Shown here: positions 3,795 through 18,737 of the stretch, piece by piece
Numbering within the stretch: the stretch's first letter is position 1
How the letters are laid out: the number at the start of each line of letters is the position of its first letter
Assembly (NCBI RefSeq): GCF_002835995.1
Contig: NZ_PJBZ01000084.1
Span: 1 to 32,618, forward strand
Reading direction: 5' to 3'
From: Psychromonas sp. Urea-02u-13
GTDB lineage: Bacteria; Pseudomonadota; Gammaproteobacteria; Enterobacterales; Psychromonadaceae
DNA: 32,618 nucleotides
Notes under the pieces: model-generated
The model's input: only the letters and a program-made list of their open reading frames with translations
Told to the model about the DNA's origin: nothing
The model's database searches: none
Translations under genes and position numbers: made by a program

Positions 3795-3810
3795 ACAAGT
3801 TGTATGCCAA
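3795..3810 (-). promoter_or_regulatory. Candidate sigma-54 promoter of the LruC gene (weak -12)
   Basis: On the minus strand the sequence is TTGGCATACAACTTGT, with a perfect -24 box and correct 10-bp spacing but GT instead of GC at -12. The predicted start would be near 3784, about 37 bp before the LruC ATG. It is weaker evidence than the four plus-strand promoters. Confidence 0.45.
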
Positions 3811-3910
3811 CCAGGTTTAAATAAATATTAAAGGGCCATGACGGCAATGTTTATAGGCTTGTTGGGTTTTGTTTTTTATTTTAAAAGTAAATAGTGGAAG
3901 GCTCTAAGTG

Positions 3911-3947
3911 TGCAAAATTGCATTTTGCGAAGCGCAATGCATTGCAG
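3911..3947. promoter_or_regulatory. Dyad activator-site cluster A in the divergent intergenic region
   Basis: Two palindromes lie side by side: GCAAAAT-TGC-ATTTTGC (3912-3928) and the perfect dyad GCAATGCATTGC (3933-3944). They sit about 145-178 bp upstream of the predicted sigma-54 start at 4089 and about 127-160 bp upstream of the candidate LruC start, so one site could serve both divergent units. Related GCAAATTGCAA words occur upstream of the other three sigma-54 promoters. The rest of the 3748-4168 gap shows no gene. Confidence 0.6.
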
Positions 3948-4061
3948 CTAAGCGTTATTACTTGCTTTGAGGTGGCGCTTAAAAAGGAATGCTCAGCCGC
4001 ATCATGTTAATAGAGGCTGTGAGGCGTTATTTATAGGGGTTAAAGGGGGGATTGGCTTTGT

Positions 4062-4078
4062 TTGGCATTAACTATGCA
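4062..4078 (+). promoter_or_regulatory. Sigma-54 promoter upstream of the first glycosyltransferase
   Basis: TTGGCATTAACTATGCA matches the -24/-12 consensus, with GG at 4064-4065, a 10-bp spacer and GC at 4076-4077. The predicted start is about 4089, leaving an 80-nt leader before ATG 4169. Confidence 0.75.
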
Positions 4079-4168
4079 GTGCATTGAGTAGAGCGGATGA
4101 ATGAACGCTGCATTGGTTAGCTAAAGGCCGTGTGGAAACAAGCATGGCATAGTGCGATAGGGGGAAGT

Positions 4169-5179
4169 ATGAATGTATCTAAAGTCTGGATCCTGTTAGA
4201 TAGCCGTCACGCAGGTGGCATAGAGTCTCATGTGTTGCAGTTAGCACAGGGGTTAAATGCACATCAGGTAGATGTTTGTGTGGTGTTTTTAAAAGATTAT
4301 GGTGCGCATCCTTTATATCAACATTTACAGGCATTAGGTATTCAATATACAGTGCTCGATGGGCAATATAATAAATTGTATAAGTTACTCAAAACGCAAC
4401 TTCACGCTGTGTTACATACCCATGGTTATAAGGCAGGCATTATTGGCAGAGTGGTCGCGCGTTTATTACATATGCCGGTGATCAGCACTTATCATGCGGG
4501 CGAAATTGGCCATGGAAGATTGGCATTTTATGATTGGTTAGACCGAAGCAGTGCTTTTTTGGCGAATCATGTGTTTGCGGTCAGCCCTAAAATCGCGGCA
4601 CGTTTACCCATTGGCGCAGAGGTGTTTGATAACTTTGTTGATAATAGCAAGCTGTCCCTTGGCCAAGGAAAACAGGTCGCTTTTGTGGGCCGAGTCAGTG
4701 ATGAAAAAGGGCCTGATTACTTTTTACAAATAGCAAAATTGTTGCCTGAAGTAGAATTCCACCTTTATGGTGGTGGCCCTTTATTTACTCAAATGCAACA
4801 AATCGCAACACCAAACATGCACTTACACGGGCAACAAGATGATATGTCACAGGTCTGGTCTAAGGTCGGGTTATTAGTCATGCCATCTCGTTTTGAAGGA
4901 TTACCGATGGCAGCATTAGAGGCAATGGCAAGAGGTATTCCGGTACTTGCCTTTAATGTTGGCGCGTTAAATAAGTTAATCTGCGAGGGTAAAAATGGCT
5001 GGTTAGTCGCACCTCATGATGTGCAAACATTAGCCAATAAAGTTAATTTATGGCTGACGTTTAGCGAACAACAAAAAGAGAATTTTCAGTTAGCCGCCCA
5101 GCAAAAAATTAATCACCAATTCGCTAGCCACGTTGCCATTCCTAAATTAATCGAAAAATATCAAAAACTATATATATGA
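4169..5179 (+). CDS. GT4-type glycosyltransferase (possibly SypH-like)
   Basis: A 336-residue GT-B glycosyltransferase. The N-terminal acceptor domain begins VWILLDSRHAGGIESHVLQL, typical of GT4 enzymes. The C-terminal donor domain has VAFVGRVSDEKGPDYF, LYGGGPL and the E-x7-E motif in SRFEGLPMAALEAMARG. ATG 4169 is preferred over the upstream GTG at 4130 because AGGGGGAA lies just before it and it begins exactly at the family N-terminus. It is transcribed alone from its own sigma-54 promoter and separated by 416 bp from the next unit. V. fischeri sypH is also a glycosyltransferase next to sypI, so this could be its counterpart, but the assignment is by position only. The substrate cannot be read from sequence. 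Confidence 0.88.
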   Translation: MNVSKVWILLDSRHAGGIESHVLQLAQGLNAHQVDVCVVFLKDYGAHPLYQHLQALGIQYTVLDGQYNKLYKLLKTQLHAVLHTHGYKAGIIGRVVARLLHMPVISTYHAGEIGHGRLAFYDWLDRSSAFLANHVFAVSPKIAARLPIGAEVFDNFVDNSKLSLGQGKQVAFVGRVSDEKGPDYFLQIAKLLPEVEFHLYGGGPLFTQMQQIATPNMHLHGQQDDMSQVWSKVGLLVMPSRFEGLPMAALEAMARGIPVLAFNVGALNKLICEGKNGWLVAPHDVQTLANKVNLWLTFSEQQKENFQLAAQQKINHQFASHVAIPKLIEKYQKLYI

Positions 5180-5186
5180 GCGTACG

Positions 5187-5216
5187 GCCTCTTTGATGTT
5201 TCGTTTTATAAGAGGC
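5187..5216 (+). terminator. Possible terminator hairpin after the first glycosyltransferase
   Basis: GCCTCTT (5187-5193) and AAGAGGC (5210-5216) form a 7-bp stem with a 16-nt loop, 8 bp after the stop codon and followed by TATTT. It is a weak stem with a short U tract. From 5220 to about 5400 there is no gene or recognisable element. Confidence 0.35.
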
Positions 5217-5412
5217 TATTTCTACTGTGACTAAACTCACGCTACGCTAGTTTTTACGATGAACCTTCTCTTATTACCCTCAATTCCCCTCAATAGTCCT
5301 CTTTTATAAGCCTCTCTAGACCTGCCTTATAACCCACGCTTGTATGACTTCCTTTTAGGCTATCCCTTAGTGATAAGTCATAAACTCTGCGAGCTATTTA
5401 AAATTTCAAAAC

Positions 5413-5447
5413 GCAAATTGCAAACGCATTTGTTTTTTGCAATTTGC
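5413..5447. promoter_or_regulatory. Dyad activator-site cluster B
   Basis: GCAAATTGCAAA (5413-5424) and its exact inverted copy TTTGCAATTTGC (5436-5447) form a perfect 12-bp inverted repeat with an 11-bp spacer, about 123-157 bp upstream of the predicted start at 5570. The same words recur upstream of 11129 and 18775. Confidence 0.65.
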
Positions 5448-5542
5448 AATGCAGATTACTAGCAAGCGCTTAAATTTATTAACACTTAATACCTTAAATA
5501 AAATTAACTCATAAAAATCAATCAGATAAAAAATTTTAATAG

Positions 5543-5559
5543 TTGGAACAAGGTTTGCT
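5543..5559 (+). promoter_or_regulatory. Sigma-54 promoter of the sypIJKL-like unit
   Basis: TTGGAACAAGGTTTGCT has GG at 5545-5546, a 10-bp spacer, GC at 5557-5558 and a T-rich -12 box. The predicted start is about 5570, 26 bp before ATG 5596. V. fischeri also has a sigma-54 promoter before sypI. Confidence 0.78.
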
Positions 5560-5595
5560 CTATTAACTATATCACTTCCTCATAAGGTTCATTTT

Positions 5596-6834
5596 ATGCA
5601 AACGGAAAATAGAACGGGCACTAAAAACATTTTGTTTACGCATTACGGTGATAACTGGATAAGAGGCAGTGAGCGATGCTTATTAGATTTAATGACAAAT
5701 ATCGATACGAAAAAATACACGCCTATTCTATGGTGCAACCAGCCCATCATGGCGCAGCAAGCCAGAGCACTCGGTATCAAAGTGTTTTGTTCTCATTTTT
5801 CAATTTTATTGGGCTGGCAAGCACCGCGGTTTAATGTGCTTAATTTCCTGCGCTTAATCAAAGAAGCGAAACAATTAATTACCACGTTGCACATTGATAT
5901 CGTGCATGCCAATAGTGCCGTGCCTTGCCAATGGTTAAATATTGCCGCGCGCCAGTTACATGTGCCGCTATTATGTCAGATTCATGCAATCTATCCATTA
6001 CGTGACCGTTTAACGTTTGGGCTTTATCACGTGAGTAAAGTGGTCGGGGTGAGCCAGTATGTGATGAGACCTTTCTACCAAGATAACTTACCCGTATCAC
6101 GTAGACAGGTAATACCTAACGGCATCGATGATAAAAAATTATCTCAGCAAGCCTTAATCGATTTACATCATGGCTTAAATATTAGTTGCGGTACCTTTGT
6201 GATTGCCGCCGTGGGTTCATTGATCAAACGTAAAGGCATGGACTTAATCATTGATGCGTTAGCGCTGTTATTAAAAAAACAGTTGCCGATGCATCTGCTT
6301 ATTATTGGGGACGGACCCGAAAAAGAAGCACTTACAGCTCAAATAGCGTCACTGGGTTTACAGCAACAAGTCACCTTATTAGGTGAGCAGGATAATGTTA
6401 TGGGCATTCTGCGTGGTACTGTGAATCTATTTGTTTCTGGGGCTCGCGAAGAAGCGTTTGGCTTGGTATTTGCTGAGGCAAGTTTAGCTGGGCTCGCTAT
6501 CGTGGGCCCCTACATTGGAGGAATACCTGAGGTTGTCAAAAACAACGAAACAGGTTTATTGGTGAGTCCTGAAAACAGCTTTGCATTAAGTATTGCGATT
6601 GAAAAGCTCTATCAGTCACCCTCATTAGAGTATCGATTAGCAAAATCAGGGCAGAAACATATCTTGGAAAATTTTACCATTCGCCATAATGCCCAACAAT
6701 TTGAACAAACCTACCAAACATTATTACAAACCCCTGAAGTATTCTCGCCTTGGTATACCAATACATCTTGGATGACATCACTTGTACATGGTTGTCAGCG
6801 ATTCATGAAAAGAGGGCAACACCATGAAGCATAA
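5596..6834 (+). CDS. sypI: GT4-type glycosyltransferase, SypI-like
   Basis: A 412-residue GT-B enzyme. The N-terminal domain begins with ILFTHYGDNWIRGSERCLLDL. The donor domain carries VIPNGIDDKK, IGDGPEKEAL and the E-x7-E motif in REEAFGLVFAEASLAG, followed by GGIPEVV. It presumably adds one sugar of the repeat unit to the undecaprenyl-linked intermediate on the cytoplasmic face of the membrane. It is the first gene of a unit with its own sigma-54 promoter and overlaps the next gene by 11 bp. The symbol rests on order: two glycosyltransferases, flippase, polymerase, then acetyltransferase, as in sypI-sypM. Confidence 0.82.
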   Translation: MQTENRTGTKNILFTHYGDNWIRGSERCLLDLMTNIDTKKYTPILWCNQPIMAQQARALGIKVFCSHFSILLGWQAPRFNVLNFLRLIKEAKQLITTLHIDIVHANSAVPCQWLNIAARQLHVPLLCQIHAIYPLRDRLTFGLYHVSKVVGVSQYVMRPFYQDNLPVSRRQVIPNGIDDKKLSQQALIDLHHGLNISCGTFVIAAVGSLIKRKGMDLIIDALALLLKKQLPMHLLIIGDGPEKEALTAQIASLGLQQQVTLLGEQDNVMGILRGTVNLFVSGAREEAFGLVFAEASLAGLAIVGPYIGGIPEVVKNNETGLLVSPENSFALSIAIEKLYQSPSLEYRLAKSGQKHILENFTIRHNAQQFEQTYQTLLQTPEVFSPWYTNTSWMTSLVHGCQRFMKRGQHHEA

Positions 6835-7954
6835 AACCCATATTGTTGTAATTGATCCTATTCCCTTTAATGGCGGCTCAAAAGTAGCCACTGCTAATGT
6901 ATTACGCCAGCTTGACCATGAGGAGGTGCGTATCTCGGTATTGACGGCGGACAAGCAAGCCTGGGGCAATGCTAACTTTACCAAAATGTCTTTTTTTGAA
7001 TTTGGATTCTTAGAAAATAAAGAGCAAGGCATCGCTTATTTTTTACGCCATTTAGTGATTGCATTTTATCTCTTATTGTTACGTTTACGCTTCGGTAAAA
7101 TAGATATTACCGTTGGGGCATCGGGTCCCGGTGTTGATTTAGCCATGTACATGGTTAAGCCTTTTTTAAAGCAAAATATCATTCAATTTATTCACGGGCC
7201 TGTTGCTACCTCACGCACGATTGCCCGTTGTTTAAATCATGCGGATCAAGTTTATTATCTGCACAGCACACTTGGCTCAATACATAAAACATTACGTGTA
7301 CTGGGACCGGTGGAGCAGGACTTACCTGCTCATTTTTGCTTATTTGAAAATGGCTTGTGTGATGAAGATTGGCCAACACAATGCCAGATACATTCGCCGG
7401 TTATTTTTTGGGCTGCCTCATTATTAAAATGGAAAGGATTAGATTTATTACTGGAGGCTTTAAAGGGCATTGATACGTTATTGCGCCCGCAAACACATAT
7501 TTGTTATATCAAGCCCCATTCGACTCAATTAGCGATTACCGACGCGCCAGTATCGCTCAATAAAGTGAAATGGTATGAAAGCCCTGCACATATCGACAAG
7601 TTACGCGCCAGTGCCAATATTTTCATTTCAAGCAGTAAAAATGAACCCTTTGGCCTGTCAATTTTAGAAGCGATGGCGGCGGGCATGTGTGTGCTTATTC
7701 CGGCCGATGATGCTTATTGGGATCATATTTTAGAAGACAATATTAACTGCATTAAATACCAACCTGACAATGCACAAGATCTGCAACAAAAAATACTGAT
7801 GCTTAATAAGAATATGCCTACGGTGATAAAAATGGGCCAAGCCGCCGCTCAGTTAGCATTACATTATCGTGCCTCTGTGCAATATCAAGACATTAAAAAG
7901 AACATCGAAATGCTGTGCCGCTGTGCGCCTGATTCTACTTTAGTGAATGGTTAG
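6824..7954 (+). CDS. sypJ: GT4-type glycosyltransferase, SypJ-like
   Basis: A 376-residue glycosyltransferase. It opens with VVIDPIPFNGGSKVATANVL, an acceptor-domain start, and the donor domain shows the E-x7-E motif in KNEPFGLSILEAMAAG at about residues 280-295. The N-terminal half holds a hydrophobic stretch (LVIAFYLLLLRL, about 75-86), suggesting membrane association. It starts inside the end of sypI (ATGAAGCATAA), implying coupled translation, and lies 3 bp before the flippase gene. Its role is likely transfer of a further sugar to the lipid-linked repeat. The specific sugar is unknown. Confidence 0.8.
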   Translation: MKHKTHIVVIDPIPFNGGSKVATANVLRQLDHEEVRISVLTADKQAWGNANFTKMSFFEFGFLENKEQGIAYFLRHLVIAFYLLLLRLRFGKIDITVGASGPGVDLAMYMVKPFLKQNIIQFIHGPVATSRTIARCLNHADQVYYLHSTLGSIHKTLRVLGPVEQDLPAHFCLFENGLCDEDWPTQCQIHSPVIFWAASLLKWKGLDLLLEALKGIDTLLRPQTHICYIKPHSTQLAITDAPVSLNKVKWYESPAHIDKLRASANIFISSSKNEPFGLSILEAMAAGMCVLIPADDAYWDHILEDNINCIKYQPDNAQDLQQKILMLNKNMPTVIKMGQAAAQLALHYRASVQYQDIKKNIEMLCRCAPDSTLVNG

Positions 7955-7957
7955 CCT

Positions 7958-9382
7958 ATGAAAATTATAATAAGTGATAGCGTCAAACAAAGCTGTTTAT
8001 ACGGGGGAAGCATTGCCTTAATGAAAGGGGTGTCGCTATTACTTTTACCCTTTATTGCCGTGCATCTGAGCGCCTCTGAATTTGGTCGACTTGAGGTGAT
8101 TACTAGTTTGGCGATTATCGGTAGCATTATTGTGGGCATGGGCCTACAAGATACCTTATTTCGTTTTGCAGGTTGCGCTAAAGACAAGCAGCAACAACGT
8201 CAGGTGAGCGCTGAAATATTTTCATTAACACTGATTATTGGTGGTTTTGCATTATTGGTCGCTTGGTTTGCTGCCGCTTGGTTTACTACTTTAATCCCCG
8301 GTGAACCGAGTGTTTATGAAGTGCGATTAGTACTGTTGATGCTTGCGCTAGAGGGTTGTATTGCGATTCCACTTGCTTGGTTAAGAATGAATAACAAAGC
8401 AGGATTATTTTTCTTTGTTAGTAGTGGGCGTGCATTGTTACAGGCATTACTGGTCGCTATTTTATTAATCTTCGAACGTGGTGTTGCTGGAATATTAGAG
8501 GCTGCGTTATTGGCTGCTGTTCTGCAGGCGCTAATATTGGGTTATTGGCAAATTAAAGACACGGGGTTGCATTTTAGTCGTCGCACCAGTTACCACTCTT
8601 TTGTCTATAGCTTGCCTATCGTCGGCAGTGGCATGGTGGCCTTTGTTTTGAATGGCTTAGACCGTTGGGTACTCGCGGACTACACCTCGTTAATTGATGT
8701 GGCTGTATTTGGTATTGCAGCTAAATTCGCATTAGCCATGATATTGTTATTACAACCCTTTGGAATGTGGTGGTCTCCACGTCGCTTTGAAGTATTACAG
8801 CGCATTGATGGTAAGCAACAAGTCGCAAAAATGATTGTACTTGGCAGTTGTTTAGCATTAACTATTTCGGTTTTTGTAGCCCTTATTTCTCCTTCATTAA
8901 TTATTGCTTTATTACCCGATAATTATCATCAAGCAAGTGCTTATGTGCTTGCGATTGTATTGGTTTATTTATTCAAAGAGTTAGTTGAGCTGTTTAATAT
9001 TGGCTGTTTTCATGGCAGTACCACAAACAGTCAATTAATCATTAATATCATCGGTGCCAGCGTAGGGTTATTCGCCATGTTATGGCTGACACCTTTATAT
9101 CAAGTATGGGGATTAATTGGTGCTCTGTTATTAGCACAGGTTATTCGTTTTATCTTGTTTTATAAGGTCAGTCAGTATTATTTACCATTAGATTACCCGA
9201 TCATCAATTTATTAATATTCGCGCTAGTGGCTGCCCTGTGGTTATTTGTAGGCACGCAAATAAACGGTTTATTAAGCCTATTTTTTACCTTAATCGCGAG
9301 TATGATCTGTTTATTATTTTGCGCGCATTATTTACATCTATTTCGTTTACCCCGCTTTTCTGGTGAGCAAGTTTCACTATGA
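7958..9382 (+). CDS. sypK: Wzx-type polysaccharide flippase, SypK-like
   Basis: A 474-residue polytopic membrane protein of the MATE/MOP (polysaccharide biosynthesis protein) superfamily with about 12-14 hydrophobic helices across its length. The start is typical: YGGSIALMKGVSLLLLPFIAVHLSASEFGRLE matches the family pattern (helix 1, then 'l...y.L..eeyG.l'). It presumably moves the undecaprenyl-linked repeat unit across the inner membrane before polymerisation. It lies 3 bp after sypJ, and its TGA overlaps the start of the polymerase gene in ATGA. No missing segment is apparent. Confidence 0.85.
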   Translation: MKIIISDSVKQSCLYGGSIALMKGVSLLLLPFIAVHLSASEFGRLEVITSLAIIGSIIVGMGLQDTLFRFAGCAKDKQQQRQVSAEIFSLTLIIGGFALLVAWFAAAWFTTLIPGEPSVYEVRLVLLMLALEGCIAIPLAWLRMNNKAGLFFFVSSGRALLQALLVAILLIFERGVAGILEAALLAAVLQALILGYWQIKDTGLHFSRRTSYHSFVYSLPIVGSGMVAFVLNGLDRWVLADYTSLIDVAVFGIAAKFALAMILLLQPFGMWWSPRRFEVLQRIDGKQQVAKMIVLGSCLALTISVFVALISPSLIIALLPDNYHQASAYVLAIVLVYLFKELVELFNIGCFHGSTTNSQLIINIIGASVGLFAMLWLTPLYQVWGLIGALLLAQVIRFILFYKVSQYYLPLDYPIINLLIFALVAALWLFVGTQINGLLSLFFTLIASMICLLFCAHYLHLFRLPRFSGEQVSL

Positions 9383-10842
9383 ATGACACAATAGAACGTC
9401 CATCAGTATTATTACCCGCACTGAGTTGTACTTTGGTATGCGGGTTGGTTGCAATGCTGTGGCCGTTGATTCCTAATCCGCTTATTTTGGTGGTCATTGG
9501 CTTCGCACCTATTGCGTTGTTAGTGGTATTACGTTTGCCATTTCTGTTTGTTTTACTGTTTATTATTTTTTCATTTTTCCGCATTCATGAAGTTGTGCCG
9601 CAAATTTATAATTTTAAAATTCCGCTTTTATTATCATTGGCTTCCTTAGGCGCACTTGCCTGGCACACGCTGATATCACATGAACTTAAGGTTTATTGGC
9701 GTCCAGAGTTAAGCGTATTAACACTATTTTTTGTGCTGGTATTCATTGGGGTGATACTCGCCAGTAATCGAGGCGTTGCAATAGAGTATTTCAAAATCAT
9801 TTATTGGAAAATTATTATCATGACCTATGCCGTGGCATGGCTTTCGCGTAGTGAAAAAGACTTTGCCTTAAGTTGTCGATTAATCACGCTCTTTGGCATG
9901 CTGGTGGGCCTTGTTGCGCTTTCAAACCAGGTTAACGGCATTGGTTTGGTGGAAGGGACGCGGGTTACTATTGGACGTGCTATTGGCTCGGTATTAGGCG
10001 ACCCGAATGATCTCGCGTTGGTATTAATGTTTCCGGTGGCGTTTGCCTGCAGTTTGTTCTTTACCAACAACATGGGCTGGTTTAATAAAACACTGGGTGC
10101 GGTGAGTTTACTGGTCCTGTTTTTTGCCATTATTGCCACACAAAGTCGTGGCGGGTTATTAGGTATGTTGAGTATCTTTGGCGTTTTTGGTTATCGAAAA
10201 ATCAAATCTAAAACGCTTTTTTTTACTGTGATTATTATAGGGGCCGCCTTGTTATTTATTTTTGCGGGTATTTCGGGGCGTGAATCAGGTGGCGCTGCTG
10301 AAGATGGCATTGATGCCTCGGCAATGGGGCGTTTATATGCCTGGGAGGCCGCCTTTGGTATGGCGGTTGATAATCCATTAACTGGGGTGGGCCTTAATAA
10401 CTTCTATTCTAATTATTATTATTACAGCCAGCATTGGGATGGCTTAAACCATGCGGTGCACAGTACGTGGTTTGGCATATTAGCGGAAACGGGATTTTTA
10501 GGACTCATCGTTTTTATTGCCTGTATTGTATTATTAATTAAAAGTGTCATGACCAGCTTAAAACGGATCGAAACACACTCAGACTTGGTCTCTCCCGCCA
10601 TTTATGGCATGGCGCAAGCGGTGTTTGCAGGGTTAATTGGCACCATTGTCTCTGCGACTTTTCTGACTCAAGGTTTTACTTGGCCTATTTATATTTTAGC
10701 AGCCCTAGTGATTGCGATTGCCCATTGGTGTGATAGCCATTTACCGACTGATGCCATAACCAAGAAATCACCGCTTGATAGAAAATTTCAGAAAAAGACA
10801 AAAGCAATTAACCACGAAGGCACGAAGAAAGAGGAAGGTTAA
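9379..10842 (+). CDS. sypL: O-antigen ligase/Wzy-type polymerase, SypL-like, with repeat-encoded C-terminus
   Basis: A 487-residue protein with about 10-12 membrane helices. The Wzy_C/O-antigen ligase signature is seen: ATQSRGGLLGML at about residue 255 and a periplasmic loop with GVGLNNFYSNYYYYSQHW and LNHAVHSTWFGILAETG, including the conserved His. It likely polymerises the flipped repeat units, though ligation cannot be excluded. ATG overlaps the flippase stop. The last about 13 residues (KAINHEGTKKEEG) and the stop codon are encoded by the interspersed repeat at 10801-10910, so the natural C-terminus was probably replaced or extended when the repeat inserted. Confidence 0.85.
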   Translation: MNDTIERPSVLLPALSCTLVCGLVAMLWPLIPNPLILVVIGFAPIALLVVLRLPFLFVLLFIIFSFFRIHEVVPQIYNFKIPLLLSLASLGALAWHTLISHELKVYWRPELSVLTLFFVLVFIGVILASNRGVAIEYFKIIYWKIIIMTYAVAWLSRSEKDFALSCRLITLFGMLVGLVALSNQVNGIGLVEGTRVTIGRAIGSVLGDPNDLALVLMFPVAFACSLFFTNNMGWFNKTLGAVSLLVLFFAIIATQSRGGLLGMLSIFGVFGYRKIKSKTLFFTVIIIGAALLFIFAGISGRESGGAAEDGIDASAMGRLYAWEAAFGMAVDNPLTGVGLNNFYSNYYYYSQHWDGLNHAVHSTWFGILAETGFLGLIVFIACIVLLIKSVMTSLKRIETHSDLVSPAIYGMAQAVFAGLIGTIVSATFLTQGFTWPIYILAALVIAIAHWCDSHLPTDAITKKSPLDRKFQKKTKAINHEGTKKEEG

Positions 10843-10910
10843 AACCTTAAAACTTAATCCTTTTTAGGATTTTCTTCGTGTCCTCTGTGTAGCGAAGCGC
10901 TTCGTGGTTA
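10801..10910. repeat. Interspersed palindromic repeat, copy 2, overlapping the 3' end of the polymerase gene
   Basis: AACCACGAAG at 10810-10819 pairs with CTTCGTGGTT at 10900-10909, with further pairing between GGCACGAAGAAA and TTTCTTCGTGTCC. An inner small hairpin, AAGGTTAAAACCTT, lies at 10835-10848. The left arm matches copy 1 at 869-907 in inverted orientation. The right arm carries an apparent insertion (TGTGTAGCGAAGCG) relative to a simple palindrome. It could double as a transcription terminator between the sypL-like gene and the next promoter. Confidence 0.75.
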
Positions 10911-10950
10911 TATTTTTAATGTTTCGCTTCTTTCTTTACTGCTTTCCTTA

Positions 10951-10980
10951 ATTGCAATTTGCGAATGTGCTTTGCAAATT
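10951..10980. promoter_or_regulatory. Dyad activator-site cluster C
   Basis: ATTGCAATTTGCG followed by CTTTGCAAATT. AATTTGC (10956-10962) and GCAAATT (10974-10980) form an inverted repeat about 94-123 bp upstream of the predicted start at 11074. The words are the same as in cluster B and the cluster at 18626. Confidence 0.6.
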
Positions 10981-10992
10981 ACTACTCAAATA

Positions 10993-11046: not shown

Positions 11047-11063
11047 TTGGCGCGTTCTCTGCA
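11047..11063 (+). promoter_or_regulatory. Sigma-54 promoter of the sypMNOPQR-like unit
   Basis: TTGGCGCGTTCTCTGCA has GG at 11049-11050, a 10-bp spacer and GC at 11061-11062. The predicted start is about 11074. It shares the CTCTGCAAT segment with the sypA-like promoter at 18721. V. fischeri also places a sigma-54 promoter before sypM. Confidence 0.78.
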
Positions 11064-11128
11064 ATACCTCTGCTATGTGGTCATACGATAAATTAAATAT
11101 CAGATTAGCAAATGGGGAGTGGTTATTT

Positions 11129-11863
11129 ATGAAAGCATTTACAATAAACCAAAGTAAACAGTGGTTAAAAACAAGTCCTAATCCCATTGCTAAAGTTATC
11201 TTTAAATCGCTTAAAGCGGTACTGCATCTTGAACTTCCTGCCCCTAAATTTATATTACGTCTTGTCTATTCTGCGTTCATTTTTACGCGCAACCTGATTG
11301 CACATATCATGCGTATTTTATGCTGGACACCTTTGTTTAAAGGGCGTGTTCAATCATTGGGTAAATATCTGAATCTTTATGGCGGGTTACCTTTTATCAG
11401 TGGTCCGGTACAAATTAGCATTGGTGATAACTGCCGCGTTTCTGGACAATCCACTTTTTCAGGGCGTACGACCGGTAACATAGTGCCCACCTTAACCGTT
11501 GGTAATAACGTTGATATTGGTTGGATGACAACGATTGCTGTTGGCAACACTGTGCAAATAGGTAATAACGTGCGTATTGCAGGGCGCACGATATTAGCCG
11601 GCTATCCAGGCCATCCATTAGACCCGACTGATCGCGCTAAAGGTTTGCCTGAATTAGATTCGCAGGTTGGTGAGATTATCCTTGAAGATGACGTGTGGTT
11701 AGCAACAGGCGTTTCGGTGATGGCAGGCGTGCGTATTGGCCAAGGAACGATTGTAGCTGCGGGCAGTGTAGTGACACATGATTTACCGGCAATGGTATTG
11801 GCGGGGGGCATTCCCGCTAAAGTCATTCGCAGCCTCAAAACACACAACAGTGAGGCGAAATAA
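11129..11863 (+). CDS. sypM: Hexapeptide-repeat acetyltransferase, SypM-like
   Basis: A 244-residue left-handed beta-helix acyltransferase. After a basic N-terminal segment (residues 1-75, with a hydrophobic patch near 50), hexapeptide turns run from about residue 95 to 235: SIGDNCRVSGQSTFSG, TIAVGNTVQIGNNVRIAG, GYPGHPLDPTDR with the likely catalytic His, and VRIGQGTIVAAGSVVTHDLP ending in GIPAKVIR. It presumably O- or N-acetylates a sugar of the repeat. The upstream in-frame ATG at 11075 falls on the predicted transcription start, so ATG 11129, with GGGGAG before it, is chosen. It is the first gene of a six- to seven-gene unit. Confidence 0.85.
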   Translation: MKAFTINQSKQWLKTSPNPIAKVIFKSLKAVLHLELPAPKFILRLVYSAFIFTRNLIAHIMRILCWTPLFKGRVQSLGKYLNLYGGLPFISGPVQISIGDNCRVSGQSTFSGRTTGNIVPTLTVGNNVDIGWMTTIAVGNTVQIGNNVRIAGRTILAGYPGHPLDPTDRAKGLPELDSQVGEIILEDDVWLATGVSVMAGVRIGQGTIVAAGSVVTHDLPAMVLAGGIPAKVIRSLKTHNSEAK

Positions 11864-11864
11864 T

Positions 11865-13076
11865 ATGCATCATGATCTGATTGTTTTCGCTGAAGACTGG
11901 CAGGGGCTACCAAGTAGCACGCAGCATTTAATCAAACAGCTGGCTACAACACGTAAAGTCGTGTGGATTAACTCAATCGGTTTACGCCAGCCAACTTTAA
12001 ATTGGCAAGATGCCAAGCGCCTTTGGATGAAATTAAGTGCAAGTCATACTGAAAAGAATAAGAGTGAAAAGAATAATACGATAACAGCAAGTAATGAAAG
12101 CGCTTCTTTAGAGAGTGATCATTCAGAAAGCAAGCATTTAGAGCAAGCTAATTCAAATCATGATTTTTATGTGGTTAACCCACGTACTCTTCCTGCGCCA
12201 CGTAGCCAGTTTGCACGTTTTATCGCCCGCCAATTATTGTTATTACAAATTAAACCAATCATCAAAAAAGCACAATTAGACTCTCCCTTGTTATGGGTTT
12301 CTTTACCGACGGCCGTTGATTTTAGTGGTCACTTAGGTGAGTCCGGTTTGGTTTATTATTGTGGTGATGATTTTTCTGGTTTAGCGGGAGTGGACCATAA
12401 TACGGTCGCATTACGTGAACAAGAGTTATCTGAAAAAGCGGATTTAATATTAGCGGCAAGCCCTAAGTTAGTGACGCACTTTCCTAAACACAATACCCAA
12501 CTATTAACTCATGGCGTTGATTACAAACTATTTTCAACAGCGACTCCACGCGCAAATGATCTACCCGATGATGGGCGTCCTATTGCAGGTTTTTACGGCA
12601 GTATTTCACAATGGTTAGACTTGCCTTTATTACGTGAAACCATTTTAAAACTCCCACAATGGCACTTTGTTTTTATTGGTAAAGCGGTGGTTGATATCAG
12701 CTTAATCAGTGCCTTAGAGAATGTGACTTTATTAGGCGAACGTGAACATCATCTATTACCTAGTTACAGCCAACATTGGACGGCATCATTATTACCCTTT
12801 TGTGATAATGCACAAATTAGAGCCTGTAACCCATTAAAATTAAAAGAATACCTAGCCGCTGGCCGACCTATTATCAGCACCCATTTTCCGGCGATAGATG
12901 CTTATCGTGGTTTAGTGCAAATTGCTAATAACAGTGATGCGATGGTTGAAGCGTTATTAGACAGTCAGCACGTTCAATCGTTAGCTCAATTCTCTACTGT
13001 TTTACGTGATGTGGTGGCGCAAAAAAGTTGGCAAGCCCGCGCGAATAAATTGTCTCACTGGTTGGGTGAATTATGA
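11865..13076 (+). CDS. sypN: Glycosyltransferase, SypN-like
   Basis: A 403-residue GT-B-fold protein of the TuaH-like type. The N-terminus LIVFAEDWQGLPSSTQHLIKQL is followed by VVWINSIGLR. The C-terminal half has GRPIAGFYGSISQWLDLPLL, HFVFIGKA and the donor-site pattern NPLKLKEYLAAGRPIIST, in which KxxEYLAxGxP replaces the usual E-x7-E block. A Ser/Glu/Lys-rich low-complexity insert covers about residues 55-95. ATG 11865 begins one base after the previous stop and is preceded by TGAGGCG. The longer frame from 11778 would overlap the acetyltransferase and is rejected. Confidence 0.8.
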   Translation: MHHDLIVFAEDWQGLPSSTQHLIKQLATTRKVVWINSIGLRQPTLNWQDAKRLWMKLSASHTEKNKSEKNNTITASNESASLESDHSESKHLEQANSNHDFYVVNPRTLPAPRSQFARFIARQLLLLQIKPIIKKAQLDSPLLWVSLPTAVDFSGHLGESGLVYYCGDDFSGLAGVDHNTVALREQELSEKADLILAASPKLVTHFPKHNTQLLTHGVDYKLFSTATPRANDLPDDGRPIAGFYGSISQWLDLPLLRETILKLPQWHFVFIGKAVVDISLISALENVTLLGEREHHLLPSYSQHWTASLLPFCDNAQIRACNPLKLKEYLAAGRPIISTHFPAIDAYRGLVQIANNSDAMVEALLDSQHVQSLAQFSTVLRDVVAQKSWQARANKLSHWLGEL

Positions 13077-14524
13077 ATAACCTCTACTTCCAGTTTTATT
13101 ATCTATTAGCGGGGGCGTGGCGTCGCCGTTATACGATTTTTATTCCGATGCTTATATTGCCTATTTTTGCGGTGTTAATGAGTCAGTTGAGTGATAAAAA
13201 ATACACTGCACATACCAGTATGTTGTTGCAGGAAACCGCTAAGCTAAACCCATTTTTAGAAGATTTAGCCGTTTCAGCGATGCTTAAAGAGCGTATCAAT
13301 TCCTTGAAAATCCTATTACATAGCCGTCATATTTTAGGTTCAGTGGCGTTGCAACAGGGGTTAATCACAGCGCAATCAACACCTCAAAAACATGACCAAG
13401 TGATTAATGAGTTGTCTAACGCATTGACCATCAACATGGTGGGTAAAGACTTAATTCGCATTGATTATCGCGCGGATGACCCAAAAGGTATGAAGTCCAT
13501 GTTAGAGGTGGTCAGTGATCATTTTATTGAACAGGTATTAGCGCCCGAGCGTTCATCAATGACCGATTCCAGTGCCTTTTTAGCTGAGCATCTTAAAAAC
13601 CGTCAGTTAGAGTTAGATAAAGCGGAAACGGCGATGGCGAGATTTAAAGACAAGTATGCAGAAGAGTTACCCGAGTTATACCTCACTAATGTCAATCGTC
13701 TTGCACAAATGAAGCAAGGTTTGGCAGAGAAGCAAGCCGAGTTAGCGGGGGCTTCGCGTAGTTTAGGTAGCATCAATCAACAATTATCAAAAACTAATCC
13801 GGTGTTAAGCCTTATTGAGCAAAACATTGTGCGTCTGCAAGGAGAAATTTCATTATTGCGTGCCCGTTATACCGAGCAACACAGCAAGGTTATTACCGCA
13901 AAAAGAAAATTACAGCGCCTAGAGCAGGAAAGACAGCAATTATTAGGCACAACAGATGAAGCGATTAATATCGACAAACTTTGGGCCATTGGCAGTAATT
14001 ACCAAAGTAGCAACGATCCTAAAAAACAGCCTTTGTTAATTACTCAATTACAAACCATGCAAAAAACCAGTGGCAAGGTAGAAGGGTTACAAGAAGAGGT
14101 TAATAGCTTAATGGTGATGATTAAGTTACTTGAGCAGCAACTTTCTGGTTACGGGGCGAATGCCAGTGAGTTATCAAGATTACAAAGAGAGGTCGCGGTA
14201 AAACGTGACCTTTATGACGACATGTTATTACGTTTTGAGAAAGCCAATATTACTGCGTCATTGAGTGTTTTTGAGCAAGATAAACGTATTAAGATAATTG
14301 ATAGCCCCTTCACGCCTTCTTCCCCTTCAAACCCTCCGCTCATTCTTTTTATTATCAGTGGTGTATTAGGCGGATTATTTTTAGGCGTGAGCCTTGCGCT
14401 AATTCAAGAGTTAAGTGATACCTCGATTTATCGCCGTAGCCAATTAGAAGAACTAACAGAAATCCCAGTATTAACACGTATTCCTTATGTTGCTCTGGCA
14501 ACACGTAATGGAGATATTTCATGA
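13073..14524 (+). CDS. sypO: Wzz/GumC-type polysaccharide chain-length protein, SypO-like
   Basis: A 483-residue inner-membrane protein with two membrane helices (about 17-37 and 427-450) around a long periplasmic part. The N-terminal Wzz domain begins at about residue 40 (KKYTAHTSMLLQE). Strong coiled-coil follows (about 165-390, with many Gln/Glu/Leu heptads), then the proline-rich motif PFTPSSPSNPP just before helix 2. Unlike fused Wzc proteins it has no C-terminal kinase; a separate CpsD-like gene lies at 22095. It likely sets polymer length and links synthesis to export. ATG overlaps the sypN stop (ATGA). Confidence 0.87.
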   Translation: MNNLYFQFYYLLAGAWRRRYTIFIPMLILPIFAVLMSQLSDKKYTAHTSMLLQETAKLNPFLEDLAVSAMLKERINSLKILLHSRHILGSVALQQGLITAQSTPQKHDQVINELSNALTINMVGKDLIRIDYRADDPKGMKSMLEVVSDHFIEQVLAPERSSMTDSSAFLAEHLKNRQLELDKAETAMARFKDKYAEELPELYLTNVNRLAQMKQGLAEKQAELAGASRSLGSINQQLSKTNPVLSLIEQNIVRLQGEISLLRARYTEQHSKVITAKRKLQRLEQERQQLLGTTDEAINIDKLWAIGSNYQSSNDPKKQPLLITQLQTMQKTSGKVEGLQEEVNSLMVMIKLLEQQLSGYGANASELSRLQREVAVKRDLYDDMLLRFEKANITASLSVFEQDKRIKIIDSPFTPSSPSNPPLILFIISGVLGGLFLGVSLALIQELSDTSIYRRSQLEELTEIPVLTRIPYVALATRNGDIS

Positions 14525-15621
14525 AAACGATCATACAAGTTGTGCAACATTTACGCCCCGGCGGCATTGAAAGCATTGCCTTGGACTTAACGCAGTTTGC
14601 ACCGAGCAATGAAGTTACGTTTATTGTTAGCCTTGAGGGCACATACCAACAAGCAGTTAAAAATTGGCCAAAACTGAGCCAATTTAAAGAGCAACTCATC
14701 TTTTTGGATAAACAGCCCGGTTTACAGCCAGCATTAATCAAACAACTCATCGATTTAATTAAACAAAAGAACGTTTATGCCGTGCATACCCATCATATTG
14801 GCCCGCTTGTTTACGCGGGGTTAGCGGCACGCTTGGCGGGGGTTAAACAGCGTATTCATACGGAACATGACGCATGGCATTTAGCGAATACAAAACGCCG
14901 TTTAGTACAGCGAATGGTGATTAAATGTGTGCAACCTATTTTAGTTGCAGATGCAAAAATGGTCGCAAATCATATGCAGCAACATCTGCAATGCAAACAA
15001 ACCATTAATGTTATTCATAACGGTATTGATAGCGATTATTTTTCACCTGGCAATAAAGTCATGGCGCGCGCTACCTTCAGTTTACCTCAACAAATCAAGT
15101 TGATTGGTTGCAGTGGACGTATGGAAACGGTAAAAGGTCAGCATGTATTAATTGATGCATTAAGTCGATTACCCCTTGAGGTGCATGTTGCATTAGCGGG
15201 GTCGGGAAGCTGTGAAAATAGCTTACGCAAATTAGTCATTAAGCATGGCTTGCAGGAGAGAGTGCATTTTTTAGGGCACATAGATGCGATGGCGACTTTT
15301 TATCAATCTTTAGACCTATTTTGTTTACCGTCATTAAACGAAGGTTTTCCTTTGTCATCGTTAGAAGCGCAATCTTGTAACATCGCCACATTAGTCACTG
15401 ATGTGGGCGCTTCTAAAGAAACGTTAAGCCCCGAGAGTGGTCGTTTGGTTAAGGCTAAAGATGCCAATGCAATGGCCTTAGTCTTATTGGAAATGCTTAA
15501 TAATAGAAAACCGGCTATGCCACGTGTTTTTGTACAGCAAAATGCCAATGTAAAAAGCATGGTCAGTGCTTATGTTTCACTGCGTAATGCGTTAACCACA
15601 CAGGGAGTTTGTCATGGATAA
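14521..15621 (+). CDS. sypP: GT4-type glycosyltransferase, SypP-like
   Basis: A 366-residue GT-B enzyme. The start IIQVVQHLRPGGIESIALDL is the GT4 acceptor-domain signature. It is followed by HTHHIGPLVYAGLAARL and IHTEHDAWHL, then the donor domain with VIHNGIDSDYF, GCSGRMETVKGQHVLIDAL and the E-x7-E motif in LNEGFPLSSLEAQSCNIA. It overlaps sypO by 4 bp and the next gene by 8 bp, so translation is coupled. It is likely responsible for one of the glycosidic bonds in the repeat unit; the donor is not predictable. Confidence 0.83.
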   Translation: MKTIIQVVQHLRPGGIESIALDLTQFAPSNEVTFIVSLEGTYQQAVKNWPKLSQFKEQLIFLDKQPGLQPALIKQLIDLIKQKNVYAVHTHHIGPLVYAGLAARLAGVKQRIHTEHDAWHLANTKRRLVQRMVIKCVQPILVADAKMVANHMQQHLQCKQTINVIHNGIDSDYFSPGNKVMARATFSLPQQIKLIGCSGRMETVKGQHVLIDALSRLPLEVHVALAGSGSCENSLRKLVIKHGLQERVHFLGHIDAMATFYQSLDLFCLPSLNEGFPLSSLEAQSCNIATLVTDVGASKETLSPESGRLVKAKDANAMALVLLEMLNNRKPAMPRVFVQQNANVKSMVSAYVSLRNALTTQGVCHG

Positions 15622-16840
15622 TATGATAATAATACTCACGCTGATCAGTGGTTTTTTAGTGATCTATCATCATTTGGGTTACCCACTTATTTTGAAGTTA
15701 TTTAAAAAACAATCTGCGCAGCTGCATCAACATCAACAACAGCAACAACAAACAAACGGACAATCCGTTAACCCACCAGCCGCGCGTCAATATACCTGTT
15801 CAAATAAAGATAACGACTTGCCTAATATCGCGATTGTGGTACCTGCTTATAACGAAGCACAATGGATTGCAGAGAAAATTCGTAATCTAGCCGCCTTAGA
15901 TTACCCAAGCGGACATCTACAGGTGATTATTGGTTGTGATGGATGCCAAGATAAAACCTATGCCATTGCAAAGGCGACAGCTGCTGAACCTGAATGTGCA
16001 GAGCTCGCGATTACCATTATTAATTTTCAGATTAATCGAGGAAAAATAGCACTGCTTAATGAGTTATTACCAACATTAAAGTGTGATTTAGTGGCGTTAA
16101 CAGATACCTCGGCTTTGATTTCAATTGATGCATTAATGATTGCAGCTAACCGCTTTAAAGATCCAAAAATCGGTGTGTTAAATGGACATTATCGGTTATT
16201 AACGCCGGGCTCAGCAGGTGAACAAGCGTATTGGGATTACCAAAGTGAAATAAAAATAAGTGAAGCTGCTCTTGGATCAACACTAGGCGCACACGGGGCT
16301 TTTTATCTTTTTCGTCGTGAGTTATTTGAACCACTTGCTAGCGATACTATCAATGATGATTTTATTTTACCGATGAAAATTGTAGCCGCTGGATACCGAG
16401 CAGATTATGAAAACAGCATTAATGCGTTAGAGCTAGAAAAATCCAGTGATGACCAAGATCATATGCGCCGTCGCCGTATTGCAGCCGGTAATGTTCAACA
16501 ACTCTTACGCCTTAAAATGTTACTTTTACCCCGTTATAAAGGGGTCGCTTTTGCTTTTATTTCAGGAAAAGCTTTACGTGTATTAATGCCTTTTTTAATG
16601 ATTATTAGTTTGCTGGGTTGTTTATTATTAGCCTCGCATTATTTACTGTTTTTAGCGTTAGCCGTAGCGCAACTAATGCTTTATGGCCTAGCAAGCTGGC
16701 AGTTATTAATGAAACCGAAACAGAGCAACAAAGTCAGTCGTTTATTGGGGTATTTAGTGGGCGGTCATGTTGCCGGGTTGATTGGCACAATACGTTATGT
16801 TTTACACCTTGACGGTGATCGCTGGACAAAAATTAACTAA
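15614..16840 (+). CDS. sypQ: Membrane GT2-family glycosyltransferase, SypQ-like
   Basis: A 408-residue processive-type GT2 protein. It has an N-terminal membrane helix (about 4-24), a His/Gln-rich linker, the GT-A domain with VVPAYNEAQWIAEKIRNL and VIIGCDGCQDKT (about 75-120), a TDTSALI metal-site region (about 162) and DDFILPMKIVAAGYR (about 255). Its MRRRRIAAGN replaces the usual Q/RxxRW block. It ends with three C-terminal helices (about 320-400). It resembles cellulose-synthase-like and PgaC-like glycosyltransferases. The linker includes a CAA/CAG-like tract (about 15727-15760), a possible slippage site. Confidence 0.83.
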   Translation: MDNMIIILTLISGFLVIYHHLGYPLILKLFKKQSAQLHQHQQQQQQTNGQSVNPPAARQYTCSNKDNDLPNIAIVVPAYNEAQWIAEKIRNLAALDYPSGHLQVIIGCDGCQDKTYAIAKATAAEPECAELAITIINFQINRGKIALLNELLPTLKCDLVALTDTSALISIDALMIAANRFKDPKIGVLNGHYRLLTPGSAGEQAYWDYQSEIKISEAALGSTLGAHGAFYLFRRELFEPLASDTINDDFILPMKIVAAGYRADYENSINALELEKSSDDQDHMRRRRIAAGNVQQLLRLKMLLLPRYKGVAFAFISGKALRVLMPFLMIISLLGCLLLASHYLLFLALAVAQLMLYGLASWQLLMKPKQSNKVSRLLGYLVGGHVAGLIGTIRYVLHLDGDRWTKIN

Positions 16841-16851
16841 GGGGCATTATT

Positions 16852-17538
16852 ATGAATTCACCTATTTCACAATCCATTAAGTTCACTAGCCGATTAACCG
16901 CTAGCCAGGATAGTTATATTCACCCAGGGGTTAGATACGGGAAACGCGGCTTTGATTTAGTCTTTTCTGTGTGTGCTTTATTCGTATTAGCGCCGGTATT
17001 TGTATTACTTGCCATTGCGATTAAGTTAGATAGCCAAGGGCCGGTATTTTATAAACAAATACGTCTTGGAAAGTCGCCCAAAGGGCAGAACAAATTCTTT
17101 GAAATTATTAAATTTAGAAGCATGGGCACCGATGCAGAAATCGCGGGTAAAGCGCTCTTAGCTTCTAAAGGCGATCCAAGAATAACCCGAGTGGGTCGTT
17201 TTTTACGTAAAACTCGTTTAGATGAAGTGCCACAATTTTTTAATATTATTCGCGGTGAAATGTCGTTAATTGGGCCGCGTCCAGAACGCCCTGAGTTAAC
17301 CACTGAAATTGAAAAGAAAATGCCCTTTTTTACAGAGCGTACTTACCAAGTTTTACCCGGTATCACGGGGTTAGCGCAAACCAATCAAAGTTACCTTGAT
17401 AGTGTTAATGATATCGACCAGAAACTGGCCTTTGACCACGCGTATTCGTTAGCTATTTCTAGCCCTGTTAGTTGGTTAAAAACCGATATTGCGATTTTAG
17501 TGCAAACAGTGATCACTGTGGTTAAGTGTAATGGATAA
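16852..17538 (+). CDS. sypR: Priming undecaprenyl-phosphate sugar transferase, SypR-like
   Basis: A 228-residue polyprenyl-phosphate phosphoglycosyl transferase of the short, monotopic (PglC-like) type. The single membrane-dipping helix follows RYGKRGFDLVFSVCALFVLA (about 24-60), then GPVFYKQIRLGK, FEIIKFRSM, the catalytic-region motif RFLRKTRLDEVPQFFNI and GEMSLIGPRPERPEL. It transfers a sugar-1-phosphate from a nucleotide sugar to undecaprenyl phosphate and so starts repeat-unit assembly. AAGGGGC precedes ATG. Its end overlaps the EEP gene by 8 bp. The length fits the family. Confidence 0.88.
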   Translation: MNSPISQSIKFTSRLTASQDSYIHPGVRYGKRGFDLVFSVCALFVLAPVFVLLAIAIKLDSQGPVFYKQIRLGKSPKGQNKFFEIIKFRSMGTDAEIAGKALLASKGDPRITRVGRFLRKTRLDEVPQFFNIIRGEMSLIGPRPERPELTTEIEKKMPFFTERTYQVLPGITGLAQTNQSYLDSVNDIDQKLAFDHAYSLAISSPVSWLKTDIAILVQTVITVVKCNG

Positions 17539-18514
17539 ACTCAATGTCAATGTTATTGCATTACGCAGTGGTTTTATCTGGGGGGGCAATGCACTGATAT
17601 TAGTTTTATTATCATTACCTTTTTTTAGCGCGCAGCAGTGGTGGCTTGATAACTTGAGTAATTTGCAATGGCAGTGGTCTTTGTGTGCAGGGTTACTGAT
17701 TGTGATTAACATCATCTACCGATTACGTTTTTATACTTTGTTGAGTGGCTTGTTAGTGATGCTTATTATTAACCAACAGTGGTTTTTATATCAACCTCAG
17801 CAAACAAGCTTAGAGGAAGCGCAAACCTTAAATATTGGCCAGTTTAATATTAGTTACACCAATCCCTATTTTAATGAGTTATTACCACAATTAGGCGAAT
17901 CAGATTTAGATGTGATTGTGCTCCAAGAGGCATCTGATAAACAGGGTCTTAATCTAAGCCTCTTATTGCAATATTATCCCTATTCACTAGGCCTTGAATC
18001 ATTAAATGGCACGCCTTCTGGTTTAGCATTATTTTCGCGTTGGCCGATTATTGAAAGTAAAAGCCATCAATTGAATGCAGAAAAAACACATATTTTAGAG
18101 GTGGTGATACAGAGTCCTAAATCACAAACACCGGTACAAATATACGCGATTCACCCCGTTTCCCCACGTAATGAGCAGTTATGGTTACAGCGTAATAAAA
18201 CCTTTGTTTACCTTAGCGAACTGGTGTCTGAGTCTCTATTAGATAATAAAATTATTATTGGTGATTTTAATAGCAGTCATTGGAGTAGCGCTTTTAAAAA
18301 ATTACAACGTAATACAGCCCTTAAAAACAGTGCTGCTGGTTTTGGTTATATCCCAAGTTGGTCTCACGGTGGTTTACATGGTTGGTGGCCAATGCTCAGT
18401 GCTTATGTTGATCATTGCCTGATTAGTCCACAAATGGCGGTGCTCAATAAATACCAACAAATCATGCCCGGTTCAGATCATCGTTTAATAAAGACCTTGT
18501 TAGCGATTCCTTAG
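17531..18514 (+). CDS. Membrane-anchored EEP-family hydrolase (endonuclease/exonuclease/phosphatase fold)
   Basis: A 327-residue protein with about three N-terminal membrane helices (about 12-90) followed by an EEP-domain, probably outside the cytoplasm. Catalytic-type motifs are present in order: LNIGQFNISYTN (Asn), VIVLQEASD (Glu metal ligand), IYAIHPVSP (His), IIIGDFNSSHWS (DxN) and the final GSDHRLI (Asp-His pair). The fold includes nucleases, phosphodiesterases and phosphatases acting on nucleotides, lipids or sugars, so the substrate is open. Overlapping translation with the priming transferase suggests a polysaccharide-related job, perhaps hydrolysing a lipid-phosphate or phosphodiester. 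I know of no syp counterpart. Confidence 0.75.
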   Translation: MDKLNVNVIALRSGFIWGGNALILVLLSLPFFSAQQWWLDNLSNLQWQWSLCAGLLIVINIIYRLRFYTLLSGLLVMLIINQQWFLYQPQQTSLEEAQTLNIGQFNISYTNPYFNELLPQLGESDLDVIVLQEASDKQGLNLSLLLQYYPYSLGLESLNGTPSGLALFSRWPIIESKSHQLNAEKTHILEVVIQSPKSQTPVQIYAIHPVSPRNEQLWLQRNKTFVYLSELVSESLLDNKIIIGDFNSSHWSSAFKKLQRNTALKNSAAGFGYIPSWSHGGLHGWWPMLSAYVDHCLISPQMAVLNKYQQIMPGSDHRLIKTLLAIP

Positions 18515-18548
18515 CTATTTATATCAAAGAGTGTTTGCGTCAATTCAT

Positions 18549-18569
18549 CTGTCATCTGTCATCTGTCAT
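18549..18569 (+). repeat. Heptanucleotide tandem repeat (CTGTCAT)x3
   Basis: Three exact tandem copies of CTGTCAT lie between the EEP gene and the sypA-like promoter. It is short, non-coding and could vary in copy number by slippage. No function is apparent. Confidence 0.7.
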
Positions 18570-18625
18570 TTTTCATTACTGGGCAGTGAGTACTGATCGC
18601 ATAATGATAAAGCGAATTTGTCGTT

Positions 18626-18680
18626 GCAAATCAATTTGCAATTTGCAAATCCAGAAAATAAAGCTTCATGCAAAATGCAA
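18626..18680. promoter_or_regulatory. Activator-site cluster D
   Basis: GCAAATCAATTTGC (18626-18639) runs into ATTTGCAAAT (18641-18650). A further TGCAAAATGCAA lies at 18669-18680. The cluster spans about 68-122 bp upstream of the predicted start at 18748 and repeats the TTTGCAATTTGC word seen in clusters B and C. Confidence 0.6.
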
Positions 18681-18720
18681 CGAAAAACATTAACCTTTTG
18701 ATTTTATTGCGAATTAAAAG

Positions 18721-18737
18721 TTGGCTCGAACTCTGCA
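18721..18737 (+). promoter_or_regulatory. Sigma-54 promoter of the sypABCDE-like unit
   Basis: TTGGCTCGAACTCTGCA has GG at 18723-18724, a 10-bp spacer and GC at 18735-18736. The predicted start is about 18748, 27 bp before ATG 18775. It matches the known position of a sigma-54 promoter before sypA in V. fischeri. Confidence 0.78.

Follow-up and report, generated by a model that had tools for sequence, protein, structure and literature searches.

A syp-like polysaccharide regulon of Psychromonas that may have passed from SypG to a LuxO-like activator with its binding sites retained

The stretch analysed here (the window; 32,618 nucleotides, the entire contig NZ_PJBZ01000084.1, C268) belongs to the draft genome of Psychromonas sp. 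Urea-02u-13 (320 contigs, 4,749,264 bases) and carries a polysaccharide gene cluster of the syp type, the four plus-strand units of which are each preceded by a sigma-54-type promoter and a common predicted activator site. No gene for SypG, which we take to be the usual activator of such loci, was found in this cluster, and the subject of the present report is a LuxO-like enhancer-binding protein, L008, that is encoded on another contig and may have taken its place.

Unit 1 is a glycosyltransferase gene (4171..5179; listed frame from GTG 4130). Unit 2 (5596..10842) encodes two glycosyltransferases and proteins of the Polysacc_synt flippase and Wzy_C ligase/polymerase types, and unit 3 (11129..18514; listed frame from 11075) encodes a hexapeptide transferase, glycosyltransferases, a GNVR/Wzz-type protein, a Bac_transf sugar transferase and an Exo_endo_phos protein. 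They are followed, likewise on the plus strand, by genes for a sypA-like STAS protein (18775..19113), a sypB-like OmpA-domain protein (19104..19940), a sypC-like SLBB polysaccharide export protein (19937..22072), a sypD-like ATPase (AAA_31; 22059..22847), a sypE-like regulator with HATPase, receiver and SpoIIE-type phosphatase domains (22852..24435), a PhnD-like periplasmic binding protein (24486..25340) and a hybrid sensor kinase with HAMP, PAS, HisKA, HATPase, REC and Hpt domains (25342..28383; an intact frame), after which glmS starts at 28484. By our reading the start codons are probably ATG 4171, 11129 and 18775; the latter two were preferred because the frames as listed, which are longer, begin on or next to a promoter (at 11075 and 18721). 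The presence of sypA (STAS), sypB (OmpA), sypC (SLBB export) and sypD (ATPase) in this order, together with glycosyltransferases, marks the locus as syp-like, and the closest protein relatives of the window genes are found in Psychromonas. Such clusters are already known from the genus: in the passages of PMC8941931 that deal with the scv locus of Vibrio parahaemolyticus, homologues are reported from 28 genera, with Psychromonas among those named.

All four gaps contain a GG-N10-GC element in a TGGCA/TTGC context, the sigma-54 promoter type. The first-pass annotation had placed these elements at 4062, 5543, 11047 and 18721, one base before the positions given here, and had proposed dyads of the TTTGCAATTTGC type at 3911, 5413, 10951 and 18626; we see these dyads at 3918, 5437 (with a weaker one at 5413), 10952 and 18624-18650, plus 18668. 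In the following, dyads (to which no strand is assigned) are compared with the 13-mer TTGCAWWWTGCAA, given as the upstream activating sequence (UAS) of LuxO in PMC10162802, and the -24/-12 elements are all on the plus strand. Gap 1 holds the UAS-like dyad TTGCATTTTGCGA (3918..3930; one mismatch to the 13-mer, counterparts in six Psychromonas) and the element TGGCATTAACTATGC (4063..4077). In gap 2, the weaker dyad GCAAATTGCAAA (5413..5424) and the perfect UAS TTGCAATTTGCAA (5437..5449) precede the element TGGAACAAGGTTTGC (5544..5558). Gap 3 contains the UAS TTGCAATTTGCGA (10952..10964; one mismatch), a conserved TTTGCAAAT stretch after it at about 10971 and the element TGGCGCGTTCTCTGC (11048..11062). 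Gap 4, upstream of sypA, has the composite box TTGCAAATCAATTTGCAATTTGCAAAT (18624..18650), which includes a perfect UAS at 18636-18648, a second UAS, ATGCAAAATGCAA (18668..18680; one mismatch), without a conserved copy in the other five Psychromonas, and the element TGGCTCGAACTCTGC (18722..18736). The box ends 41-132 bp before the -24 element, a range of distances that fits looping to the sigma-54 holoenzyme, and rpoN, the gene for sigma-54, is encoded in the genome. Dyad and GG-N10-GC element occur together in all four gaps, and the proposed sigma-54 regulon with common enhancer-type sites is supported.

To which known family does the box belong? It had been described as differing from the V. 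fischeri SypG box, and this holds. The SypG UAS as given in PMC10162802, TTCTCANNNTGMDWN, does not occur in its exact form, TTYGCA replacing TTCTCA by eye. A new word was rejected as an explanation, since the core is the published LuxO UAS, matched upstream of the -24/-12 elements by two perfect and three one-mismatch copies in the gaps. Judged by this match, the gap dyads are predicted UASs of the LuxO/SypG family, with the core TTGCAWWWTGCAA and the 15-mer TTYGCAWWNTGCRAA. The gap 3 box read on the reverse strand, TTCGCAAATTGCAAT, is one specified base away from the V. fischeri SypG consensus. PMC10162802 reports genetic evidence, without demonstrated binding, for an action of SypG at qrr1 of V. 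fischeri by way of sites matching the LuxO 13-mer.

Another question is whether dyads of this kind could have arisen in the gaps by chance. Perfect matches to the 13-mer occur twice in the whole genome, both in the window (5437 and 18636), and the reversed pattern does not occur at all. With at most one mismatch there are 49 sites genome-wide (control, 40), six of which lie in the window: five in the gaps (3918, 5437, 10952, 18636 and 18668) and one, at 22939, inside the sypE-like gene. For the 1,287 bases of the gaps, an even spread predicts 0.013 sites against the five observed (Poisson p about 3e-12). A sigma-54-like element (score of at least 17 by our own weights, based on the sigma-54 consensus, 25-200 bp to either side) was detected near seven of the 49 sites, namely the five gap sites, the coding site at 22939 and one coding site elsewhere. 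Only this last one of the 43 sites outside the window has a strong element, and as it lies in coding sequence, no further regulon members are proposed. Chance origin of the gap dyads was rejected on the basis of the genome-wide counts, the reversed control and the Poisson test.

The arrangement is conserved within the genus. A sypA-like gene at E <= 1e-40 was found in the Urea-02u-13 genome and in 5 of its 23 genus-mates (G008, P. marina (G010), P. ossibalaenae (G015), P. hadalis (G016) and P. aquimarina (G023)); G021 has a sypA-like fragment at 2e-7. In these six Psychromonas genomes, a GG-N10-GC element and a box at most two mismatches from TTYGCAWWNTGCRAA, a 15-mer derived from the scanned sequences themselves, are present in 24 of 24 gap/genome combinations, while among 300 random 330-base pieces of the right third of the window, nine reach two mismatches and none fewer. 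The published 13-mer, which is independent of these sequences, is matched with at most one mismatch in 20 of the 24 combinations (6, 5, 3 and 6 of 6 genomes for gaps 1 to 4) and with at most two in all 24. The composite TTGCAAA-N3-ATTTGCAWWWTGCRAA upstream of sypA is nearly invariant in Psychromonas.

These data raise the question of which protein recognizes the boxes. In G008, P. marina, P. ossibalaenae and P. aquimarina, sypG directly follows the kinase gene (81-83% identity of the other three proteins to P. marina SypG), and SypG-type genes are also present in the loci of Motilimonas eburnea (G034), G032, G056 and G043. In the window, the kinase has no sypG neighbour and is separated from glmS by a junction of 100 bases (28384..28483). 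Neither the PF00158 matches, nor a search with P. marina SypG, nor inspection of the locus revealed sypG in the Urea-02u-13 draft genome or in P. hadalis; the best match of the P. marina query in both genomes is the L008-type protein, at 37-39% identity. The P. hadalis locus also lacks sypE, the PhnD gene and the kinase gene, with glmS following sypD. Psychromonas that keep sypG have the same kind of box, which suggests that the box remained unchanged when the activator changed.

The Urea-02u-13 genome contains 13 PF00158 matches, eight of them strong (E <= 4e-62). Of these eight, only L008 (C267:18613-20046, minus strand) has the C-terminus PKAAALLEVSPSTIYRKK, to be compared with PKAAALLDVSPSTIYRKK at the C-terminus of the four Psychromonas SypGs. 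The segment SPSTIYRKK, identical in L008 and the Psychromonas SypGs, is by our assignment the putative recognition helix. L008 has a receiver domain (REC), a Sigma54_activat domain with GAFTGA (read in the translation) and a Fis-type helix-turn-helix, the composition of a sigma-54 enhancer-binding response regulator. Its best NCBIfam model is LuxO (NF041946) with 389 bits, below the equivalog cut-off of 800, and among solved structures the closest to it in sequence is LuxO 5ep0. The first-pass annotation had left open whether the activator diverged or another one took over; with sypG not found and a LuxO-like protein with a matching helix present, the second possibility is favoured. No Rfam family reached its gathering score in either the window or the 16 kb around the activator; whether Rfam includes Qrr was unchecked.

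L008 belongs to a four-gene module, in which it is joined by a Peripla_BP_6 protein, a 600-residue kinase and, encoded divergently, an HD_5-domain response regulator. The HD/GYP motifs of this response regulator (L029:6313-7608, on C267) look degenerate (YETGK, GLP), and it is perhaps inactive as a c-di-GMP phosphodiesterase. In Urea-02u-13 the module occupies the interval from asd to gpsA together with a DUF1007-like gene (our label) on the gpsA side, and in both Urea-02u-13 and P. hadalis L008 is found with its three partners next to the gpsA region, on a contig other than that of the cluster. The spacing between asd and gpsA is about 0.1-0.4 kb in 5 of 10 other Psychromonas without L008 (G020, G019, G009, G006 and G003). 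P. aquimarina and P. ossibalaenae have about 1.3 kb between the two genes, and the stretches examined in P. marina, G008 and G021 do not extend to asd.

Among the best candidates of each of the 24 genus genomes (at most 26 per genome), L008 was detected at E <= 1e-120 in Urea-02u-13 and P. hadalis only, and a search across the order, with four candidates scored per genome, detected proteins related to L008 (E <= 1e-170) in 5 of the 394 genomes: these two, Alteromonadales bacterium alter-6D02 (G038), G114 of the Psychrobium family and G166 (Psychrobiaceae). In G114, all four module genes adjoin the glycosyltransferase end of a syp-type cluster, the sypA-D part being outside the stretch. In G166, where the loci L102 and L116 are one contig, the genes for the binding protein, kinase and activator adjoin the glycosyltransferase end, and next after sypD comes a gene for a protein related to the response regulator (41%). 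Both genomes have a UAS, without mismatch in G166 and with one in G114, 73 bp before the consensus sigma-54 promoter TGGCAC-N5-TTGC. In alter-6D02, an L008-type activator gene stands beside sypD. In a tree of 29 proteins (with a long-branch warning, and with the G038 protein and P0087 as one near-duplicate pair), L008 groups at 100/100 with proteins of Colwellia, Thalassomonas and the Psychrobium family, 11 L008-type proteins in all, and the 15 SypG-type proteins form a separate group, likewise at 100/100. Within the L008 group, the proteins of Urea-02u-13 and P. hadalis are placed with the Colwellia branch (92/88). The module was apparently imported from a Colwellia/Psychrobium-type source.

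Beyond Psychromonas, we compared 41 sypA loci (the window and 40 others). In 34 of them, a GG-N10-GC element with a score of 15 or more lies within -95 to -30 relative to the matched start, and 10 have the 13-mer with at most one mismatch. In seven Oceanospirillales-type loci (L094, L105, L106, L108, L109, L111 and L112), the boxes upstream of sypA resemble TTCGCAAAATGCGAA or TTCTCAAAATGAGAA, which come close to the SypG box of V. fischeri, and the helices resemble GNIPTAAHYLQISAATIYRKRNSW. In Enterovibrio/Grimontia (12 aligned loci: L080, L081, L084-L087, L090, L093, L095, L096, L098 and L100), the box upstream of sypA is roughly TTTCYCA, then TCA, then TGMRAAA, and the SypG helix differs where the gene was seen, as in GNVLKAAVLLQISPSTLYRKK; box and helix are different again in the eight aligned Oceanospirillales-type loci. 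Judged by eye, the box thus appears to vary along with the helix across genera. Four Moritella loci (L097, L099, L101 and L103) carry sypA-, sypC-, sypD- and sypE-like genes, with neither a strong sigma-54 element nor a UAS nor a full enhancer-binding protein in the stretch examined, and are possibly regulated differently.

We propose that the four gaps are the sigma-54 promoters of a single syp-like polysaccharide (biofilm) regulon, ordinarily activated by SypG encoded after the hybrid kinase, and that sypG would have been lost in the lineage of Urea-02u-13 and P. hadalis. The kinase of the module, as the presumed partner, would phosphorylate L008, whose dimers would bind the dyad, assemble on the boxes, loop to the sigma-54 holoenzyme and open the promoters. 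We consider it probable that sypG was lost and that L008 of the imported module now works the same boxes, the binding sites having been kept; sharing of one recognition helix by both activators would explain why the kind of site did not change at the takeover. The wider proposition, that the whole sigma-54 biofilm regulon changed hands when an outside sensor-kinase-activator module displaced SypG, we hold with less assurance, judging it somewhat better than an even bet. Under this proposition Urea-02u-13 would represent an intermediate stage, in which the old kinase, PhnD and sypE are kept and sypG is gone, and P. hadalis the completed one, in which all have gone from the locus. Binding, activation, the phosphorylation partner, the import and the order of events are what we infer here.

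Several points weigh against this proposal. The swap is seen within Psychromonas in two sister genomes only and thus counts as one event, and the two assemblies are drafts of 320 and about 350 contigs, though the sequence runs unbroken from the kinase gene into glmS. The kinase, PhnD-like and sypE-like genes of the window are all intact frames and could still serve an unseen partner. On the LuxO model, NtrC of this genome reaches 378, near the 389 of L008 and, like it, far below 800, so that only the helix, not the model, singles out L008. The divergent activator and response regulator genes have a one-mismatch UAS between them in Urea-02u-13 (L029:6178) and P. hadalis (L118:6204), and no sigma-54 element was found within about 230 bp of it; autoregulation of L008 through sigma-54 was rejected for this reason. 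In alter-6D02, no UAS with at most two mismatches precedes sypA despite the adjoining activator of the same type. As regards the import, the P. hadalis contig ends before asd is reached, the Colwellia relatives, which form the nearest branch of the tree, were compared at the protein level, and the order-wide search, like that in the genus, was limited to the best candidates per genome (four).

If sypG had been lost without replacement, the cluster would be silent or on housekeeping promoters and the sites would be relics, a view to which the additional loss of sypE, PhnD and the kinase from the P. hadalis locus lends some weight. We regard it as unlikely. Between the two sypG-less genomes, the UAS (57/64 identical aligned columns) and the -24/-12 elements (50/60) are better kept than the rest of the gaps (394/595; Fisher p about 5e-6; each compared from 20 bp ahead of the UAS as far as the start), as expected from continuing selection, and the biosynthesis frames are open. 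It is less likely still that another enhancer-binding protein of the genome was rewired to the boxes. Seven more strong PF00158 proteins are available for such a role (among them NtrC, a flagellar pair and NorR-like, DctD-like and PAS-type proteins; names other than NtrC are our reading), but their C-terminal helices are far from the SypG/LuxO type, and NtrC, at 766 against its own NCBIfam cut-off of 620, has its own job; L004, L006 and L007 were left out of this NCBIfam scan. The 13-mer is a simple AT-rich palindrome and the sites are predictions from sequence, so another kind of regulator, such as a repressor or nucleoid protein, might bind the dyads next to chance GG-N10-GC words. This is very improbable given that both occur together in all 24 Psychromonas gaps and in Psychrobium-family clusters and that the dyad is the UAS used in genetic tests elsewhere. 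Finally, that L008 is a relocated, fast-diverging sypG, of the same family and with a similar helix, is hardly credible. Its identity to proteins of the Psychrobium family, Colwellia and Thalassomonas, with which it groups at 100/100, is 60-66%, against 35-38% to the Psychromonas SypGs, and it is accompanied by a binding protein, a kinase and a response regulator of its own.

If the takeover by L008 is true, it offers a clean natural case of a paralogous activator taking a regulon while the sites stay, with donor-type, intermediate and finished states available, and it would place a new input signal on a biofilm polysaccharide. SypG and LuxO boxes would then form one family, which bears on the qrr1 cross-activation reported in V. 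fischeri. No title or abstract start found on SypG/LuxO replacement or on sigma-54 exopolysaccharide rewiring describes such a swap, subscription papers being mostly outside the search, and its novelty is provisional.

At the flanks of the cluster, the left edge is formed by a gene for a large protein with DUF4842, DUF6923 and GEVED domains (1486-3747, minus strand), and a transposase-like fragment, of the DDE type by eye, lies near the left contig end (212-484, plus strand). To the right of glmS there are two plus-strand frames without a Pfam match (30973-32043 and 32180-32500).

Among known systems, the scv locus is of the same broad cluster kind and is activated by the SypG orthologue ScvE; the passages on scv in PMC8941931 say nothing of an activator that was lost or replaced. 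With the syp locus and SypG regulon of V. (Aliivibrio) fischeri, the Psychromonas locus shares sypA-D-type genes, a SypE-type regulator, a hybrid kinase and sigma-54 promoters with a common UAS; it differs in that no sypG was found in the locus or the draft genome, in its TTYGCA rather than TTCTCA box and in the PhnD-like protein beside the kinase. The Vibrio qrr promoters are alike in the LuxO 13-mer, here in two perfect copies, and in a LuxO-like activator, whereas the Psychromonas targets are polysaccharide operons and the activator is far under the LuxO cut-off. With LuxP-LuxQ-LuxO signalling, the module has in common a periplasmic binding protein gene beside those of a sensor kinase and a LuxO-like sigma-54 activator, and is distinguished by the Peripla_BP_6 type of its binding protein and by an extra HD-domain response regulator.

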